DNA from: Lentilactobacillus rapi DSM 19907 = JCM 15042
Lineage (GTDB): Bacteria; Bacillota; Bacilli; Lactobacillales; Lactobacillaceae
Direction: 5' to 3'
Assembly (NCBI RefSeq): GCF_001436255.1
Contig: NZ_AZEI01000073.1
Span: forward strand, 1-44,880
DNA: 44,880 nucleotides
The position numbers were made by a program, and so were the translations under genes. The notes beneath the pieces were generated by a model. It ran no database searches. It saw only the letters and a program-made list of their open reading frames with translations, and was not told the origin of the DNA. Below are positions 6,102 through 41,293 of this stretch, piece after piece. Each line of letters begins with the position of its first letter. Position 1 is the stretch's first letter.

Positions 6102-6234
6102 GAGTGTGCGTAGCAAAGCGGTTAGAAGTTGGAGCACAAGCCCCTCCCAGCGTAAATCCCGGTTTTGGGGATTTATGCTGGGAGGGGCTTGTGTGCAGAC
6201 TTCTGCTTTGCGGAGCACCATTCGGCCATGTAGA
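6102..6234 (+). repeat. R1 hairpin repeat, full copy (R1-a)
   Basis: Full-length R1 element. The left arm runs from GTGTGCGTAGCAAAGCGG to GCACAAG. The variable middle stem pairs CCTCCCAGCGT with ATGCTGGGAGG. The apical stem is AAATCCC/GGGGATT. The right arm runs from CTTGTGTGC to GCTTTGCGGAGC. Here the inner arm pair is CACAAG/CTTGTG where most other copies have CATAAG/CTTATG, a compensatory change. It lies upstream of padR and is followed by three tandem right-half copies. Confidence 0.8.
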
Positions 6235-6240
6235 CCTAAT

Positions 6241-6490
6241 TCCCGATTCTGGAATTTTCACTGGTGGTGCTTATGCGCAGGTTATTGCTTTGCGGAGCAC
6301 CATTCGGCAATGTAGCCTAACCCGGTAATCCCGGTTTTGGGGATTTATGCTGGGAGGGGCTTGTGTGCAGACTTCTGCTTTGCGGAGCACCATTCGGCCA
6401 TGTAGCCTCGGTAATCCGGGCTTTGGGGATTTATGCTGGGCGGGACTTATGTGCAGACTTCTGCTTTGCGGAGCACGATTCGCCAATATG
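6241..6490 (+). repeat. Three tandem right-half copies of R1
   Basis: Three consecutive units (about 6241-6313, 6324-6405 and 6406-6490) repeat the right half of R1: an apical piece such as GGTTTTGGGGATT, a right middle stem, CTTATG- or CTTGTG-type arm, and GCTTTGCGGAGCACCATTCGG or a close variant. The second is nearly identical to the right half of R1-a. The first has a different middle-stem half (CACTGGTGG). No left halves lie between them, so they cannot form the usual hairpin. Together with R1-a this fills most of the 575-bp gap between padR and the next gene. Confidence 0.75.
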
Positions 6491-13018: not shown

Positions 13019-14434
13019 ATGAAGCAAACAGTTTCCAATGGAGAAACGTCCAAGCCAAAGCCCACAGCTGCTCTCAAGAATATGGTGCCCTGGAATGAAC
13101 GATTCTCATATAGCTTAAGTGACTTTGCCTGTAACCTATCATTTCAAATGGTTGGAACCTATTTAATGATTTTCTATACGGATACATTTGGAATTAGTGC
13201 CGCCGCAGTGGGGACCCTATTCCTGGTTGCCCGGATAGTTGATGCTTTTGACGGTCCTTTCTGGGGTATTATGATTGATCATACCCATACGAAATGGGGA
13301 AAGAGCCGGCCGTATTGGTTGTGGTTCTCGATTCCATTTGCGGTCTTCTGTGTTTTGGTATTTACCACACCAAACCTGAGTTTAACCGGTAAGCTCGTTT
13401 GGGCCTATATTACCTATATTGGTGTCGATGTTCTTTATTCGGCAGTTAACATTCCAATTACTTCGATTTTGCCATCATTAACCAGCAACCCCCAAGAACG
13501 AGTAACCTTATCAACGATTCGCCAATTTATGGGAACTGCCGGCGCTGCGATCATTACTGGAATTACCTTGACCATGGTTGCCTTCTTTGGCGGGGGCTCC
13601 ACGACTAGTGCTCATGGTTGGTTCATTTGGGCATTAATTGTTGGAATCGTGGTTGTCCTGATCTTCGCAGTTGTCTTTAAGAACACTAAAGAACGGGTTC
13701 AAACCAAGAGTTCGCGTCAATCAATTCCGATCAAGGAATCACTAAAGGCACTCAAGCGTAACTGGCCTTGGGCAATCATCATCTTTATCAACTTTATTTA
13801 CTGGATGGGGATGCAGACCCGTTCTCAAGTGACGGTTTACTTCTTCAAATACAACATGAACAATGCCGGCTTGGCTTCGTTTGTCTTGAGCTTGCAGTTT
13901 GTTTCATTGTTAGCAGTTGTTTTAACGCCACTGACTTCCAAAATGATTGGAAAACGAAATACGATGTTAGCGGGAATGATTATGGCGGTTGCCGGCCAAC
14001 TATTGTTAAGTGTTGGGGCGACTCATTTGAGTGTGACGATCATTATTATTGCCACGATTATCGGCTACCTTGGTACCGGGTATGTTTCCGGCTTGATCGC
14101 TGTTATGCTGGCGGATGCCGTGGATTATGGCGAATGGAAGAACGGTGTCCGGGCCGAAGGAATTGTAACCTCATTCTCAAGTTTCAGTGCCAAGTTAGGA
14201 ATGGGAATCGGTGGCGTCATCACGGGCTGGATTCTGTCAGTCACAGGTTATGTGGCTAACAAGACCCAATCCGCTGCATCATTGCACGGAATCGAAATGA
14301 ATTACATTTGGGTACCATTATTGGGATTTGCCCTTTCCGCAATCGCCTTGATGTTCTATCATGTTGATAGTATCGAAAAGAAGATGCAAACGGATTTGGC
14401 AGCTAAGCATGAGAGGGAGAATGAAGAGAAATAG
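13019..14434 (+). CDS. xylP: GPH-family oligosaccharide/isoprimeverose transporter
   Basis: A 471-aa, 12-helix glycoside-pentoside-hexuronide:cation symporter (LacS/MelB/XylP type) without a C-terminal EIIA domain. Family motifs are visible: FGISAAAVGTLFLVARIVDAFDGPFWGIMIDHTHTKWGKSRPYWLW in the first cytoplasmic loop and ADAVDYGEWKNGVRAEG in the second half. I use ATG 13019 with an ACGAGGTG ribosome site 6 nt upstream. Its position opposite alpha-xylosidase points to uptake of isoprimeverose or small xyloglucan fragments with protons or sodium. It resembles the second GPH gene at 25698-27101. The stop codon abuts an R1 repeat. Confidence 0.88.
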   Translation: MKQTVSNGETSKPKPTAALKNMVPWNERFSYSLSDFACNLSFQMVGTYLMIFYTDTFGISAAAVGTLFLVARIVDAFDGPFWGIMIDHTHTKWGKSRPYWLWFSIPFAVFCVLVFTTPNLSLTGKLVWAYITYIGVDVLYSAVNIPITSILPSLTSNPQERVTLSTIRQFMGTAGAAIITGITLTMVAFFGGGSTTSAHGWFIWALIVGIVVVLIFAVVFKNTKERVQTKSSRQSIPIKESLKALKRNWPWAIIIFINFIYWMGMQTRSQVTVYFFKYNMNNAGLASFVLSLQFVSLLAVVLTPLTSKMIGKRNTMLAGMIMAVAGQLLLSVGATHLSVTIIIIATIIGYLGTGYVSGLIAVMLADAVDYGEWKNGVRAEGIVTSFSSFSAKLGMGIGGVITGWILSVTGYVANKTQSAASLHGIEMNYIWVPLLGFALSAIALMFYHVDSIEKKMQTDLAAKHERENEEK

Positions 14435-14556
14435 TGTGTGGAGCAAAGCGGTTAGAAGTCGGAGCATAAGTCTCCACAACTGATAATTCCTGGTTCTGGA
14501 ATTTTCAGTTGTGGTGCTTATGTGCAGACTTCTGCTTTGCGGAGCACCATTTGGCT
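14433..14556 (+). repeat. R1 hairpin repeat, full copy (R1-b), beginning at the xylP stop
   Basis: The left arm starts inside the xylP stop codon (GTGTGTGGAGCAAAGCGG) and reaches GCATAAG. The middle stem pairs TCCACAACTGA with TCAGTTGTGG. The apical stem is AATTCC/GGAATT. The right arm is CTTATGTGCAGACTTCTG to TTTGCGGAGCACC. It may act as the xylP terminator, but there is no T-run. Confidence 0.8.
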
Positions 14557-14570
14557 ATGATGCCTGAGGA

Positions 14571-14634
14571 ATCTTGGACTTGGATTTCTGGATAAGGTGC
14601 TTACATGCAGATCCCTGTTTGGAGGAGCTGTCCT
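14571..14634 (+). repeat. R1 right-half remnant
   Basis: Diverged right half: apical remnant ATCTTGGACTTGGATT, then GGTGCTTACATGCAG and GGAGGAGCTGTCCT. No left half is present. Confidence 0.5.
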
Positions 14635-14640
14635 AAAAAA

Positions 14641-14758
14641 GTGAGCGGAGTAAAGCGGTTAGGAACTGGAGCCTAAGTCTCCTCAATCAGAAATCCCGGT
14701 TTTGGATTTTTGATTGAGGTGCTTAGGTGTAAGTTCCTGCTTTACGCAGCTGTCCTAT
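14641..14758 (+). repeat. R1 hairpin repeat, full copy (R1-c)
   Basis: Left arm GTGAGCGGAGTAAAGCGG, then GGAACT and CCTAAG. The middle stem pairs TCCTCAATCA with TGATTGAGG. The right arm has CTTAGG, AGTTCC and GCTTTAC, ending GCAGCTGTCCT. Three arm pairs (GTAAAGC/GCTTTAC, GGAACT/AGTTCC, CCTAAG/CTTAGG) differ from R1-b on both sides at once and keep pairing. A further left tip, GTGAGCGGA, recurs at 14774-14782 just before the regulator gene. Confidence 0.8.
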
Positions 14759-14787
14759 CCCAATAACAAAAAAGTGAGCGGATAACA

Positions 14788-15945
14788 TTGATTATTAATA
14801 AAGAAGTGATGAGAAATCATAACGAACGAACGGTTCTTCAAGCGATTATCAATAATGGACCGATTTCTCGCAATGACATGTCAAAATTGTTGGGCTTGAA
14901 CAAAATGTCGGTTTCAGACATTGTCGGTACCTTTATTGACCGAAAATTGGTCAACAGCCTAGGTGAAGACAAATCTACCGGAACAAGCGGCAGAAAGCCT
15001 GAACTTGTCGAGTTTAATGCTTCATATGGTTACGTTATCAATTTCAGCATTTCTGGACACCAACTCGAGATGTTGGCAACCAAGCTGGACGGGCGGACGC
15101 TTGAACACAGTATCCAGCCAATTAATAACCAATCAATTTCTCAAATTTCAGCAATGATGGAAGAACAAATCAATCAGTTGCCCAAATTTGATTCGGTCAA
15201 CGGTCTGTTGGCAATCTCAATTGCGATTTTTGGAGTGGTTTATGATGGTGAAATTATTACTTCACCGTTTATTGACTACGATGATTTTGACCTGGTGGGC
15301 TTCTTCCGCGACAAGTATTCGGTGCCCGTCATTTTGGAAAACGAAGCGAACCTGTCTGCGATTTTCGAACAGGATTTTAGTAAGCAGGAGTTGCAAAATA
15401 TCGTTTCGGTTAGTATCCACGAAGGAATTGGGGCGGGCATCATCTTGAATACGCAGCTGTATACGGGAAATTATGGTCAAGCCGGTGAAATTGGCCGGAT
15501 TATTATTCAGGATGCCGGCCGAAGGAAACGACGACTAACGGCGTTGCCAAACTTTGATTCGGAATGGTCCCAAACCCGGATTATCAAGAAAGCCGGTGCT
15601 CTCAAAAAGAATCAGGCTTATGCATTGGCAGACCTAATTAACGATTATAATCATGGTGATCCAGACATTGCAGAGTTGATTGAAGATTTCTGCTACCACC
15701 TGGCGATAGTAACGGCGGATCTGATTGCTGCGTATGATCCGCAAATGATCTTCTTCAATTCGCCGTTAATCGAACAAATTCCAGAAGTTTTGAAAAATAT
15801 CCAAATGAAATTGACTTTCATGCCCCTGGTACCGCCACTGGTTATGTCAAAGGATGTAAACTTGGCAACCTTGCTGGGAGGCGCCTCAATGGCAATCCAT
15901 AAGGCTTTGGATATGCAGGGAGTTAGATTGATTTTTCACCATTAG
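14788..15945 (+). CDS. xylR: ROK-family repressor, XylR-like
   Basis: A 385-aa regulator. An N-terminal winged helix (about 10-75: NERTVLQAIINNGPISRNDMSKLLGLNKMSVSDIV) is followed by a ROK sugar-kinase-like domain with the signature GIGAGIILNTQLYTGNYGQAGEIG. It lacks the CxCGxxGC zinc cluster common in ROK kinases, as many XylR regulators do. The start is uncertain. TTG 14788 has only a weak ribosome site; ATG 14809 would cost seven residues before the HTH. Context (alpha-xylosidase, GPH transporter, two identical 19-bp operator candidates) indicates a xylose- or isoprimeverose-responsive repressor. Symbol by analogy with xylPQR of L. pentosus. Confidence 0.82.
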   Translation: MIINKEVMRNHNERTVLQAIINNGPISRNDMSKLLGLNKMSVSDIVGTFIDRKLVNSLGEDKSTGTSGRKPELVEFNASYGYVINFSISGHQLEMLATKLDGRTLEHSIQPINNQSISQISAMMEEQINQLPKFDSVNGLLAISIAIFGVVYDGEIITSPFIDYDDFDLVGFFRDKYSVPVILENEANLSAIFEQDFSKQELQNIVSVSIHEGIGAGIILNTQLYTGNYGQAGEIGRIIIQDAGRRKRRLTALPNFDSEWSQTRIIKKAGALKKNQAYALADLINDYNHGDPDIAELIEDFCYHLAIVTADLIAAYDPQMIFFNSPLIEQIPEVLKNIQMKLTFMPLVPPLVMSKDVNLATLLGGASMAIHKALDMQGVRLIFHH

Positions 15946-15948
15946 GAC

Positions 15949-16066
15949 AGTGTGCGGAACAAAACGGTTAGAAACTGGAGCATAAGCCCTTCCGACCCTG
16001 AACCCTGGGCTTGGGATCGGGGTCGGAAGGGCTTATGTGCAAGTTTCTGTTTTGTGGAGCACGATT
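15949..16066 (+). repeat. R1 hairpin repeat, full copy (R1-d)
   Basis: Begins right after the xylR stop. The left arm has ACAAAACGG and GAAACT. The middle stem pairs CCTTCCGACCC with GGGTCGGAAGG. The right arm has AGTTTC and GTTTTGT. The pairs ACAAAAC/GTTTTGT and GAAACT/AGTTTC are again compensatory relative to other copies. A short right-half remnant follows at about 16086-16125. Confidence 0.8.
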
Positions 16067-16231
16067 CATCCATATCGCCTAGGACCTTAACGGAAGGGCT
16101 TATGTGCAGACTTCTGCTATGCAGATCAACCCTAATCCATATAATTTATTTTTTTGACAAAGATACCCACACACACTCGTTTTACCAGTCACCAATATAA
16201 CCAACACAAACAAATCGGAAGTGATAATCAC

Positions 16232-18454: not shown

Positions 18455-18483
18455 CATGGATATGTCGATTAAAAAAGAGATTG

Positions 18484-18590
18484 TGACGAAAGGCGATTTG
18501 ATCCCAGAATTTAAGTGAAAAAAGTAATGCATTCTGATTTTGGAATGCATTACTTTTTTGCTTAAATGGCAGGGATCAGCCGTTTGTCGC
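18484..18590 (-). repeat. R2 hairpin repeat, full copy, reverse orientation (R2-A), likely bidirectional terminator
   Basis: Outer arms read GACGAAAGG...CCCAGAATTTAAG and CTTAAATGGCAGGGATCAGC. The inner stem pairs AAAAAAGTAATGCATTC (about 18519-18535) with GAATGCATTACTTTTTT (about 18543-18559). The inner stem differs from the other full copies, but the arms are the same. T-runs on both sides and a position between the converging GH3 and gldA genes suit a terminator. Confidence 0.8.
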
Positions 18591-19806: not shown

Positions 19807-19828
19807 AATTTAACCTCCTCAAAATAAA

Positions 19829-19946
19829 GTGAGCGGAGCAAAGCGGTTAAAAGTCGGAGCATAAGTCTCCACCAACAGAAATCCTGGTTTTGGGGATTTT
19901 TGTTGGTGGTGCTTATGGGCAGACTTTTGTTTTGCGCAGCTGTTCT
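19829..19946 (+). repeat. R1 hairpin repeat, full copy (R1-e) in the gldA leader
   Basis: Left arm GTGAGCGGAGCAAAGCGG with AAAGTC. The middle stem pairs TCCACCAACA with TGTTGGTGG. The apical stem is AAATCC/GGATTT. The right arm has GACTTT, ending GCGCAGCTGTTCT. Transcripts from the promoter at 19977-20004 would cross it leftwards before reaching the gldA ribosome site. Confidence 0.8.
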
Positions 19947-20179: not shown

Positions 20180-20290
20180 TGCTCCGCAAAGCAGAAGTCT
20201 GCACGTAAGCACCTCGAACAAAAATTCCAAAATCAGGAATTTCCGTTCGAGGCGACTTACGCTCCGACTTCTAACGGCTTTGCTCCGCAT
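20180..20290 (-). repeat. R1 hairpin repeat, full copy, reverse orientation (R1-f)
   Basis: Plus strand reads GCTCCGCAAAGCAGAAGTC...GGAGCAAAGCC in reverse complement. The arm pair is CGTAAG/CTTACG, a fourth paired state at this position. The middle stem pairs CCTCGAAC with GTTCGAGG. The apical hairpin is ATTCCAAAATCAGGAAT (20224-20240), identical over 17 nt to that of R2 copies C and D. It abuts the queT stop codon. Confidence 0.8.
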
Positions 20291-20291
20291 A

Positions 20292-20810
20292 CTACTTTGC
20301 CAAGTCATATCTCAAATTAATCAAATAAATCACCACCGCACCAATCGTCATCGTTACGAATTCACCGATGCCGGCCGTGAGGTAGGTACTCCAGAACGTT
20401 GGCCAGAATGCTGTATGGCCGATAATTGCAATTTCAAATCCAATAATGAACATGTAGAACGTTCCAATTAGAACTGACGCCACTAATTTTGAAACGATTG
20501 ACTTCATATGCTTGGTTACTAAGTAAATTGTCACCAAATTAATCAACGTTTCGAACGTGCCAACGATCATATCAATCGCACCATTTGGCGACATGATATT
20601 GGTAATAAAGCAAGCAAGCGTAATGGCGATGATATAGCGCTTGTTGAATGGAACTAGGTTGTTCAGTCCTTCAGAAAAGCGGAATTGAACGGGCCCGTAA
20701 CTTACGGCTGCAAAGACCATCGTCAAAACGATGTAGAGTGCAGCAACAACGGCAGCCTTGGTTAAATCAAGAACGCTGTCGATGCCGAGAACATTAGTCT
20801 TAGAATTCAT
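20292..20810 (-). CDS. queT: QueT-type S component of an ECF transporter
   Basis: A 172-aa membrane protein with about six hydrophobic segments and the QueT-family stretch YGPVQFRFSEGLNNLVPFN. It is the substrate-binding subunit for a queuosine precursor and needs the shared EcfAA'T module, which is not in this window. It follows the purine permease on the same strand with an 84-nt gap that holds a strong hairpin (20851-20894). AAGGAAGG precedes the ATG. I see no clear preQ1 riboswitch in front of it. Substrate assignment rests on family resemblance. Confidence 0.75.
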   Translation of the reverse strand: MNSKTNVLGIDSVLDLTKAAVVAALYIVLTMVFAAVSYGPVQFRFSEGLNNLVPFNKRYIIAITLACFITNIMSPNGAIDMIVGTFETLINLVTIYLVTKHMKSIVSKLVASVLIGTFYMFIIGFEIAIIGHTAFWPTFWSTYLTAGIGEFVTMTIGAVVIYLINLRYDLAK

Positions 20811-31398: not shown

Positions 31399-31407
31399 GC
31401 TGACCAA

Positions 31408-31515
31408 CCGGCTGATCCTGGCCATTTAACAAAAAGAACCAACTATTCCTAATTTGAATCAGGAATAATTGGTTCTTTTTGTTAAATTCTGGGATTAAAT
31501 TGCCTTCCGTCCCAA
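31408..31515 (+). repeat. R2 hairpin repeat, full copy (R2-B), likely terminator of lacI-type gene
   Basis: Outer arms CGGCTGATCCTGGCCATTTAAC and GTTAAATTCTGGGATT through GCC. The inner stem pairs AAAAAGAACCAACTATTCC with GGAATAATTGGTTCTTTTT. Compared with copies C and D, the GAACC/GGTTC pair changes on both sides. It lies 10 nt after the regulator stop. Confidence 0.8.
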
Positions 31516-31924
31516 TCTTGTCCCTTTGAGGTTGAATAGTGAAACTATCAAAATACTATGTACCGCCTGGGGTTGCCAGGCGTTATTAGGAGTAAGAACC
31601 TATCAGCGTTTGTTTGAACTTGAAAGATATATTGGGGGTAGATCGTAAATTCTTGCTTCCGATATTTAATCGTGGGTTACGCTGACGGGCTCTCTTAACA
31701 AGATCAATGCAAGCATAAAGCTTTCATTTAGGTCAAATAATTGGATGTAAACTACATCCAATATCAATAATAGACTTTTTTTACCAATGTTCAATTATAT
31801 TGATCTTTGGCTGATGGGAATTGAATAAAGCAGTTTGTGGTGGCCCCTTTGACGGGAATGATGATCGCTTGCTTCCACCTGCTGGGACTATGTTATTATG
31901 AACATAATCTAGTGAGGTGATCCA
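31516..31924. other. Intergenic stretch before rexB
   Basis: I see no gene in these 409 bp. It holds a short GC hairpin CGCCTGG/CCAGGCG (31564-31582), a perfect palindrome ATTGGATGTA/TACATCCAAT (31740-31762), and the small palindrome ATTATGAACATAAT (31895-31908) in the presumed rexBA promoter area. No clear -35/-10 pair stands out. Confidence 0.4.
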
Positions 31925-39878: not shown

Positions 39879-40054
39879 GCGCTGGGGATGAGTTGGGTGA
39901 ACTCCCACCAATACATGAAGCAGTTTTAATCTTGATAACTAAGAAGTGCTGGTTTTAATGACAAACCGAAACCGGATCAGACCGGGATATATTCATTTCC
40001 AATTGATACTTATTCGCTTGGATCGACACTGATACTTAGATTAAAGTCGTGCTC
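39879..40054. other. Intergenic stretch after the L,D-transpeptidase
   Basis: I see no gene or strong signal here. With R2-C it fills the gap to the small membrane gene at 40174. Confidence 0.4.
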
Positions 40055-40159
40055 AAACGGCTGATCCCTGCCATTTAACAAAAATGACCAACTATTCCAA
40101 AATCAGGAATAATTGGTCATTTTCGTTAAATTCTGGGATCAAAATGCCTTTCGTCCCAA
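40055..40159 (+). repeat. R2 hairpin repeat, full copy (R2-C)
   Basis: Arms from AAACGGCTGATCCCTGCC to GTTAAATTCTGGGATC and TTTCGTCCC. The inner stem pairs ATGACCAACTATTCC with GGAATAATTGGTCAT. The apical core ATTCCAAAATCAGGAAT (40094-40110) is identical to that of R1-f. It is nearly identical to R2-D, 1.1 kb to the right, and sits between converging genes. Confidence 0.85.
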
Positions 40160-40173
40160 CCTTTAAAAAATCA

Positions 40174-40941: not shown

Positions 40942-41157
40942 TGTGCTCACATCCTCGTTGGTATTTCTAACCATAATAATTAGATTAAATTAACACGAAA
41001 GAGCATTATAGAGCAAAAATATGGGACATGCAACCGGAAATATTCGTGAATTTTGGGCAATAAAAAAGATGATCAGCCGTGGTGCGTGGGCATTAGTCAG
41101 CAGAGCGTTTATAAATGCAATTGAGCTTTGCGTTCTTATGTTGATAGAGCCTGCACT

Positions 41158-41260
41158 AAACGGCTGATCTCGGCCATTTAACAAAAATGACCAACTATTC
41201 CAAAATCAGGAATAATTGGTCACTTTCGTTAAATTCTGGGACCAAAACGCCGATTGTCCC
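41158..41260 (+). repeat. R2 hairpin repeat, full copy (R2-D)
   Basis: Same arms and inner stem as R2-C with a few changes (CTCGGCC for CCTGCC; GGTCACTTTC for GGTCATTTTC). Apical core ATTCCAAAATCAGGAAT at 41197-41213. It lies downstream of the CsbD-like gene and upstream of the GNAT gene. The rest of 40942-41157 holds no gene that I can support. Confidence 0.85.
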
Positions 41261-41293
41261 AGTCTTGGATGACCTCAGGGCTTGTCGCCCGCT

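Follow-up and report, generated by a model that had tools for sequence, protein, structure and literature searches.

A family of dispersed hairpin repeats in Lentilactobacillus rapi with a conserved architecture, paired variation of its helices and turnover between sister species

How can the copies of a dispersed bacterial repeat keep a common shape while the sequence of their stems is free to change? Such repeats are usually thought to be recognised by their sequence. The question is raised by R1, a hairpin repeat present in a 44,880-nt stretch of DNA of Lentilactobacillus rapi DSM 19907 = JCM 15042 (NZ_AZEI01000073.1, positions 1-44,880), hereafter the window; its copies, hundreds in a genome, share a shape, their stem sequence is free and the two arms of a helix are inherited together. 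An earlier note, made from the letters of the window, had described six full copies and proposed a covariance-model search and a comparison of orthologous intergenic sites. The six copies are all where it had placed them and the stems and arm pairs that it quoted are all present in the sequence. R1 keeps its architecture (a bulge on one side, the GGA/GCA loop and the TAAG/CTTA step), whereas paired changes make every helix variable; between sister species the main subtype has undergone turnover, in which flanks remain ~94% identical and complete hairpins or only their inner part have been replaced and units gained or lost. We hold the chances to be about even that R1 is mobile but non-autonomous and is recognised in the form of a folded strand, its copies spreading and overwriting each other, with shape selected and sequence not. 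The copies are a natural record of the requirements of a structure-recognising mobile system.

Architecture and covariation of R1

In alignment, R1 has a core of 113 nt that forms a hairpin, the interruptions of which are mostly conserved. From the outside this core comprises AGTGAGC, the 6-bp helix H2, a 4-nt one-sided bulge, the 7-bp helix H3 and a GGA/GCA internal loop, followed inward by the 8-bp helix H4, which closes with TAAG/CTTA, the variable stem H5 and an apical hairpin. The bulge lies on the 5' side only, being 4 nt long in 138 of the 150 aligned copies and GGTT in 113; a CT/T offset is a further interruption, and the apical loop has 7 nt in the six window copies. Conserved blocks are AGTGAGC, AAGCGGTTA, GGAG, TAAG, CTTA, CTGCTT and GCTGTCCTA, and the termini are AGTGAGCGGA (5' end) and TAGGACAGC. 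Copies with the right end TCC (AGCTGTCCTA) are referred to as type A, and those of the 'AGTGTGC...GCACCATTC' subtype as type B. In folding, each of the six window copies (Table 1) beats all 200 dinucleotide shuffles (z -7.8 to -12.2).

The compensatory changes that had been noticed in arms and stems are borne out in the host genome (G000). The covariation alignment (A4) was built from 150 hits, the best among 372, a total in which many entries are the opposite strand of the same copy; another alignment, A3, leaves out L008, which has an odd 3' arm. In A4, which holds 148 distinct copies and, being fitted to the model, is biased to well-paired ones, 98.9% of the cells are paired, both sides have changed in 31 of 39 pairs and doubly changed cells number 905 as against 253 in shuffles, pairing falling to 33-47% in a control in which the partner is slid by 1-3 columns. 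The pattern is repeated in the genome of another genus (G094), 93 copies of which gave 94.8% paired cells, 30 of 39 pairs doubly changed, 421 doubly changed cells versus 136 in shuffles, and 27-46% pairing when slid. The inner stem had been said to differ completely from copy to copy; it does so within the window but not genome-wide, where some H5 stems recur (CCTCGAACGG in 10 of the 148 distinct copies).

Wobble pairs were counted excluding pairs with a G.U consensus and, for G094, also one pair mostly unformed there. G.U outnumbers A.C by 172 to 16 in the host, 59 of the 172 being at one pair, and by 72 to 44 in G094. From this excess the strand as written seems to be the folding strand, clearly in the host and weakly in G094. 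Self-templated (quasipalindrome) correction, in which one arm is rewritten from the other in replication and the arms so stay complementary, would also give paired changes in every helix, and long near-perfect palindromes are prone to it. It should produce G.U and A.C intermediates symmetrically, however, contrary to the host counts and, more weakly, to those of G094; it should erode the one-sided 4-nt bulge that yet survives; and it sits badly with orthologous copies that differ by whole-helix replacement and with badly mismatched arms kept in 11 of 186 copies. Between the two explanations put forward in the earlier note, therefore, selection of the folded RNA or DNA fits best, and self-templated repair is disfavoured, because of the one-strand wobble preference, the surviving bulge and the replacement of whole helices; we regard it as very improbable as the explanation, though it may contribute.

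Abundance, arrays and host range

Copies of R1 were counted in 392 kb of the host genome, made up of the window and 40 further regions and picked mostly for their hits; nhmmer found 205 copies there, 190 of them full-length. With the covariance model, all 150 scored candidates in the host genome matched (the best 150 of 1314 first-look candidates), which together with the 205 copies in 392 kb excludes chance. The copies are grouped in 92 arrays of 1-6, mostly head-to-tail, with spacers mostly of 10-14 nt. Multi-copy arrays keep to a single strand in 63 of 63 cases in the host, 39 of 39 in the sample of L. dabitei (G011) and 23 of 23 in that of L. kisonensis (G004), 125 in total.

The covariance-model search was extended to related lactobacilli. 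The R1 model matches 21 of 60 genomes, namely the host, 16 of 23 congeners, 4 of 13 others of the family and 0 of 23 from other families; in a wider sample with stricter filters it matches 41 of 151 family genomes (host included) and 18 of the 40 sampled genera of the host's family. Rfam does not include R1. G094, a single contig of 2.99 Mb, has at least 150 copies of an R1 subfamily of its own (L183-L201), GC-rich and with a different outer helix (CCGGCGC/GCGCCGG) and different ends (GCGCGTTAT), which keeps the same bulge and some identical H3 alleles, such as AGAAGTC.

Partial copies are mostly 3' parts (14 vs 1, 14 vs 5 and 6 vs 1 in three samples), five of those in L. dabitei adjoining runs of N. 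Runs of N also occur inside some R1 arrays of L. dabitei, perhaps as assembly gaps at hairpins, and R1 may be under-counted in draft genomes.

R1 also occurs on plasmids, 82 records having a match, whereas a single 120-nt R1 query gave no match in 50,697 phage records. Among six plasmids examined, four carry one type B copy beside copY, 98-100% identical in Loigolactobacillus, Listeria monocytogenes, Limosilactobacillus and Secundilactobacillus (L173, L175, L177, L178), a heavy-metal P-type ATPase gene adjoining in three of the four; in the other two, a single type A copy adjoins a LacI-type gene and an alpha-glucosidase gene. The copies on these six plasmids look like hitch-hikers.

Turnover between sister species

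The comparison of orthologous intergenic sites revealed empty sites, exchanged stems and arrays of unequal length. By both flanks, 36 of the 92 host arrays could be placed on stretches of L. dabitei, and copy number differs in 19 of the 36, a count that includes partial copies and arrays with N. Sites occupied by R1 in one genome are empty in another: the 53-nt gap in L. kisonensis (L147) that is orthologous to the site of the copy at 15949..16060 holds no element, and the Fe-ADH site (19828) is empty in both L. kisonensis and L. dabitei. In L. fungorum (L164 8577-8663) the latter site, which may be a hot spot of insertion, carries a truncated R1 at the same place and in the same orientation.

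Comparison with the sister species L. dabitei showed stems exchanged at orthologous sites, as the earlier note had envisaged. The copy at 14433..14545 has H3 and the inner stem changed on both arms next to a conserved 3' flank, and in the copy at 14640..14750 all four scored helices differ. At L064:4823, where the spacer has not changed and the flanks hardly have, both hairpins are different; at L088:601 a single hairpin has been swapped between nearly unchanged neighbours. Counterparts of the 72 full type A copies in mapped arrays fall at N in L. dabitei (11), are absent (9), are at least 94% identical (10) or lie below that value (42), so that 10 of 52 comparable copies are retained.

Position-matched comparison was possible for 20 pairs (15 of type A and 5 of type B), once arrays that differ in copy number or contain N had been set aside, together with the mispaired array L072:8184; at least one remaining matched array (L072:15334) is shifted by one unit. 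Changes on both arms versus one arm were 6:2 for H2, 11:1 for H3, 9:6 for H4 and 13:1 for H5, four of the six one-arm changes in H4 being of a single base. None of the 20 pairs alters both arms of H2 or H3 while keeping H5. One-sided exchange does happen, as the half-converted copy L064:15807 illustrates.

Helices as paired units

Linkage between segments was calculated as information above shuffles, rare alleles being dropped (n 30-135 of 148). Between the two arms of the same helix it is 0.81 for H2, 0.90 for H3, 0.78 for H4, 1.00 for H5 and 0.77 for the apical segment, in spite of the 58-98 alignment columns that separate the arms for H4 to H2. Neighbours along one arm, only 2-6 columns apart, gave 0.26 and 0.30 (H2/H3), 0.44 and 0.49 (H3/H4) and 0.43 and 0.64 (H4/H5). 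Since the arms of a helix are linked more strongly than neighbouring outer helices on one arm, the helices reassort as paired units, and this exchange of paired modules is the surprising part of R1. At least two mismatched pairs are found in 3 of 186 full copies for H2 (1.6%) and 8 of 186 for H3 (4.3%), whereas random re-pairing of arms gives them in 19% and 42% (the latter with the same offset freedom), respectively.

A serious rival, although in our estimation an unlikely one, is that dispersed repeats undergo ordinary RecA-dependent gene conversion and unequal crossing-over, the hairpin being to some extent selected and the conserved blocks serving as short homologies. The 52 comparable type A copies have a mean best match of 0.837 in the orthologous array and of 0.928 elsewhere in the own-genome sample, with flanks at 93.9%, and 44 of the 52 are closer to a copy elsewhere, a biased figure, inflated because the best of about 185 copies is compared with the best of a few. 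As in chromosomal gene-conversion families, non-allelic copies are thus often more alike than allelic ones; moreover, units are gained and lost and arrays shifted, exchange tracts are contiguous and include the apex, and asymmetric chimeras exist (the 11 of 186 copies with at least two mismatches in H2 or H3, and the half-converted copy mentioned above). On the other hand, with random tract ends alone, mismatched arms should be much commoner than they are (19% and 42% on random re-pairing), and changed helices are mostly altered on both arms (39 vs 10 over the four helices). R1 differs from gene-conversion families in that exchange mostly respects base pairing, both arms changing together. Conversion also leaves unexplained the occupation of empty sites and the spread over 18 of 40 genera.

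It can also be the case, more doubtfully, that a dedicated recombination system of Lactobacillaceae reads the shape of the folded strand and trades hairpins or their inner parts between dispersed sites. Heredity would then run through base-paired modules, each helix being a separate allele whose arms stay together, and the conserved bulges and loops would mark the points of exchange.

Insertion sites, spacers and neighbouring genes

The trinucleotide CCT occurs within 16 nt of the first copy in the left flank of 32 of 54 type A arrays, as against 11.0 (standard deviation 2.7) in letter-shuffled flanks and 4 for AGG. It lies mostly 5-8 nt from the first copy and is typically the complement of a Shine-Dalgarno sequence; a general preference for gene starts may contribute to the excess. 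Array spacers share more bases with the host flank of the first copy than expected (2.10 vs 0.86, reached in 0 of 1000 re-pairings), and those within an array resemble each other (2.29 vs 0.84); the simplest account of both likenesses is local duplication of spacer plus element.

A miniature inverted-repeat transposable element (MITE) derived from an insertion sequence (IS) and moved in trans by a DDE transposase would be dispersed and intergenic, leave empty sites and near-static copies, and hitch-hike on plasmids, all of which R1 does. The earlier note had named such an origin as what would speak against its own reading, and this was checked in part. No target-site duplication is seen at the ends of 54 arrays above re-paired flanks (longest word shared by left and right 3.54 vs 3.52); the repeat bcr1, by comparison, has a target duplication. 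No transposase was noted between half-elements in the sampled sequence (no IS library was searched): the one same-strand pair of a 5' half and a 3' half without N between them, 4.7 kb apart in L149 and the only such pair noted among half-copies listed in part, encloses an MFS transporter gene and genes of the shikimate and prephenate pathways. The freedom of sequence helix by helix is, besides, unexpected of elements recognised by their terminal repeats, and a MITE in this sense is very improbable.

R1 is intergenic, only 1 of the 92 arrays lying within a script-predicted open reading frame. Where a neighbour lies within 500 nt on each side (63 arrays), the upstream gene is antisense to R1 in 30 of 46 cases for type A and in 8 of 17 for type B; that gene is usually the closer of the two neighbours (median 20 vs 139 nt). 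A structured RNA acting in cis for the host, as an mRNA leader or as a processing or attenuation element, with its fold selected at each site, would account for the intergenic position and for the G.U excess on one strand, and in retained copies stems change more slowly than unpaired positions. Both orientations relative to the upstream gene are found, however (type A 30 antisense and 16 sense, type B 8 and 9), so that in type A the strand with the G.U excess is more often antisense to that usually nearer gene; copies have been gained, lost and swapped between sister species; and the window has no Rfam match. A host function of this kind is improbable in our view.

Candidate mobilisers and known families

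The earlier note knew no named family with this design, and we found none in Rfam 15 for the window, nor any description of an R1-like repeat in the literature searched, as far as its listings and abstracts go. The window has 0 Rfam matches at the gathering threshold, and at E<=1 the eight hits in 14400-16150 (6 microRNA, 1 small nucleolar RNA and 1 Dictyoglomi-1) are all below gathering; on this ground a known RNA family was rejected for the window. Two enzymes were considered as mobilisers in 24 genomes of the genus, a Y1/IS200-type transposase and a reverse transcriptase, and both were rejected, as their presence does not follow the abundance of R1.

Like R1, the REP/REPIN-RAYT repeats are high-copy extragenic palindromes thought to be non-autonomous, and E. 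coli TnpA-REP is described as requiring a folded single strand with its bulge (PMC8266576, PMC3116915). The REP palindrome is described as measuring 20-40 bp (PMC3733652), as against 113 nt in R1, which has several mostly conserved interruptions, helices free to vary by paired change and one-strand head-to-tail arrays; in several R1-rich genomes no Y1 (HUH) transposase was detected. R1 works like REP/REPIN-type mobile hairpins and departs from them in the two features tested, a cognate Y1 transposase and size; given that likeness and these departures, it is filed as a non-autonomous structured interspersed repeat.

BOX, RUP and SPRITE of Streptococcus pneumoniae are, as R1 is, small interspersed repeats with strong predicted folds; they are held to be non-autonomous parasites, now dormant, about half of their insertions being core (PMC3049150), whereas type A of R1 has turned over between sister species. 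BOX and RUP have been linked to IS ends; no such link was found for R1 in the sequence searched, which included no IS library. The bcr1-bcr18 repeats of the Bacillus cereus group are intergenic families, some MITE-like and some with conserved RNA structure, which have other hosts and for which the portions of the source seen do not mention helix-wise exchange (PMC3446304). R1 can lastly be set beside integron attC, from which it differs in having no cassette genes between its units. Integron attC sites are recognised as a folded strand, as R1 would be under the reading favoured here, and share with it unpaired landmark bases, a variable stem and arrays that gain and lose units.

A model for the spread of R1

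If R1 is a mobile repeat read as a folded strand, a protein would recognise the fold of one strand (single-stranded DNA or RNA) and not its sequence. Only copies with pairing arms could then spread, and copies that have drifted but still pair would stay active, so that covariation would persist with no need of a host function at individual sites. New copies would tend to land 5-10 nt from CCT, often a Shine-Dalgarno complement; the right end of R1 carries TCCT, and hairpin-aided local duplication between such sites might build the arrays, whose bodies other copies would later overwrite. Exchanges resulting in mismatched arms would occur and not spread. Host recombination may be enough for the exchange of bodies but not for new sites.

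Several observations weigh against this model. No autonomous parent element was found in the sampled sequence. Y1_Tnp (PF01797) was detected in 7 of the 24 genus genomes and in none of the R1-rich G003, G004, G009, G014 and G018, although a divergent enzyme may escape detection, and RVT_1 in 8 of 24 and in none of the R1-rich G004, G006, G009, G014 and G016. At the nine empty sites, a model in which the spacer is carried by the element beats one with a host spacer only twice, and at all nine the best fit takes 1-8 nt off the left, so that a short irregular duplication is conceivable. With a weak bias, arrays run against the replication fork in G094 (69-71 vs 50-52, p 0.07-0.15) and in G006 (30-31 vs 16-17, p 0.04-0.08, origin assumed), which by deduction would put the folding strand on the leading template, contrary to an IS608-like route through single-stranded DNA; array orientation relative to the fork may follow gene direction. 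As for independent helices, H4 and H5 are linked at 0.64 on the 3' arm, and H5 and the apical segment (H6) at 0.82 along one arm, which implies that the latter two travel together. The preference for copies elsewhere, inflated in type A as said, holds in only 4 of 10 type B copies, and type B is retained in 5 of 10, the other 5 of 10 having no counterpart at 94%.

Orthologous arrays of sister species offer a comparative test of selection on spreading versus host function. In 18 retained orthologous pairs with both partners folded, differences number 28 in 1464 stem positions and 20 in 566 unpaired ones (p 0.035), the slower change of stems that favours selection in place. Differences between Watson-Crick and G.U pairs number 13 and those between Watson-Crick and A.C 5, less biased than the standing 172:16 (p 0.024); once a single G.U-rich pair is left out (113:16), the bias in retained pairs can no longer be told from the standing one (p 0.14). 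Too few in number, the retained orthologs do not show clearly whether selection acts on spreading or in place, and this too counts against the model.

Features of the window and the R2 relative

Coordinates of the R1 copies in the window and of a sequence-divergent relative, R2, are collected in Table 1. The predicted folds of R2 at 18478 and 40050 have the bulge position of R1, a 7-bp helix, an internal loop and a TAAG-like step, the sequence being otherwise different, and three of the four window copies score 46-67 bits under the R1 model. A DNA search of the genome with one R2 copy points to at least about 40 loci (best 40 of 142 candidates), many of them matching the window copy at 40050 with 84-99% identity along most of its length, inner stem included.

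Table 1. Positions of R1 and R2 elements in the window
Element	Position	Strand	Evidence
R1 full copy, type B 'AGTGTGC...GCACCATTC'	6103..6216	+	cmsearch 118.3 bits; fold z -10.96; L. dabitei counterpart 0.991
R1 3' half-copy, limited to the apical hairpin and 3' arm	6237..6298	+	nhmmer model 52-113
R1 3' half-copy	6312..6388	+	nhmmer model 38-113
R1 3' half-copy	6409..6474	+	nhmmer model 49-113
R1 full copy, its start being the MFS transporter stop codon	14433..14545	+	cmsearch 124.8 bits
R1 3' half-copy between full copies 14433 and 14640	14567..14628	+	nhmmer model 50-113
R1 full copy, type A (ends AGCTGTCCTA), upstream of ROK-family gene	14640..14750	+	cmsearch 121.3 bits
R1 full copy after ROK gene stop codon	15949..16060	+	cmsearch 106.5 bits
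Degenerate R1 remnant (3' arm)	16067..16140	+	alignment A1
R2, predicted fold of R1 architecture	18478..18590	+	67.2 bits with R1 model; fold z -9.39
R1 full copy, type A, beside reverse-strand Shine-Dalgarno of Fe-ADH gene	19828..19940	+	cmsearch 122.3 bits
R1 full copy downstream of QueT gene	20181..20293	-	cmsearch 126.6 bits
R2, inner hairpin folds, outer part unlike R1	31405..31518	-	84% identity to 40050-40162 copy
R2, predicted fold of R1 architecture	40050..40162	-	54.2 bits with R1 model; fold z -10.60
R2, outer part differs from R1	41153..41265	-	45.7 bits with R1 model; fold z -7.32

The tandem 3' half-copies at 6237-6480 are spaced by 82-90 bp with a CACCATTCGGC..ATGTAG-like sequence ahead, and are possibly a shortened unit of their own. 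In L149 (3220-3300, L. kisonensis) a 5' part of R1 has its H3-H4 segment expanded to a short tandem repeat. The leader of the ROK gene at 14763-14790 (AAAAAGTGAGCGGATAA) resembles the 5' end of R1, and a similar motif is present at the same place in relatives without R1.

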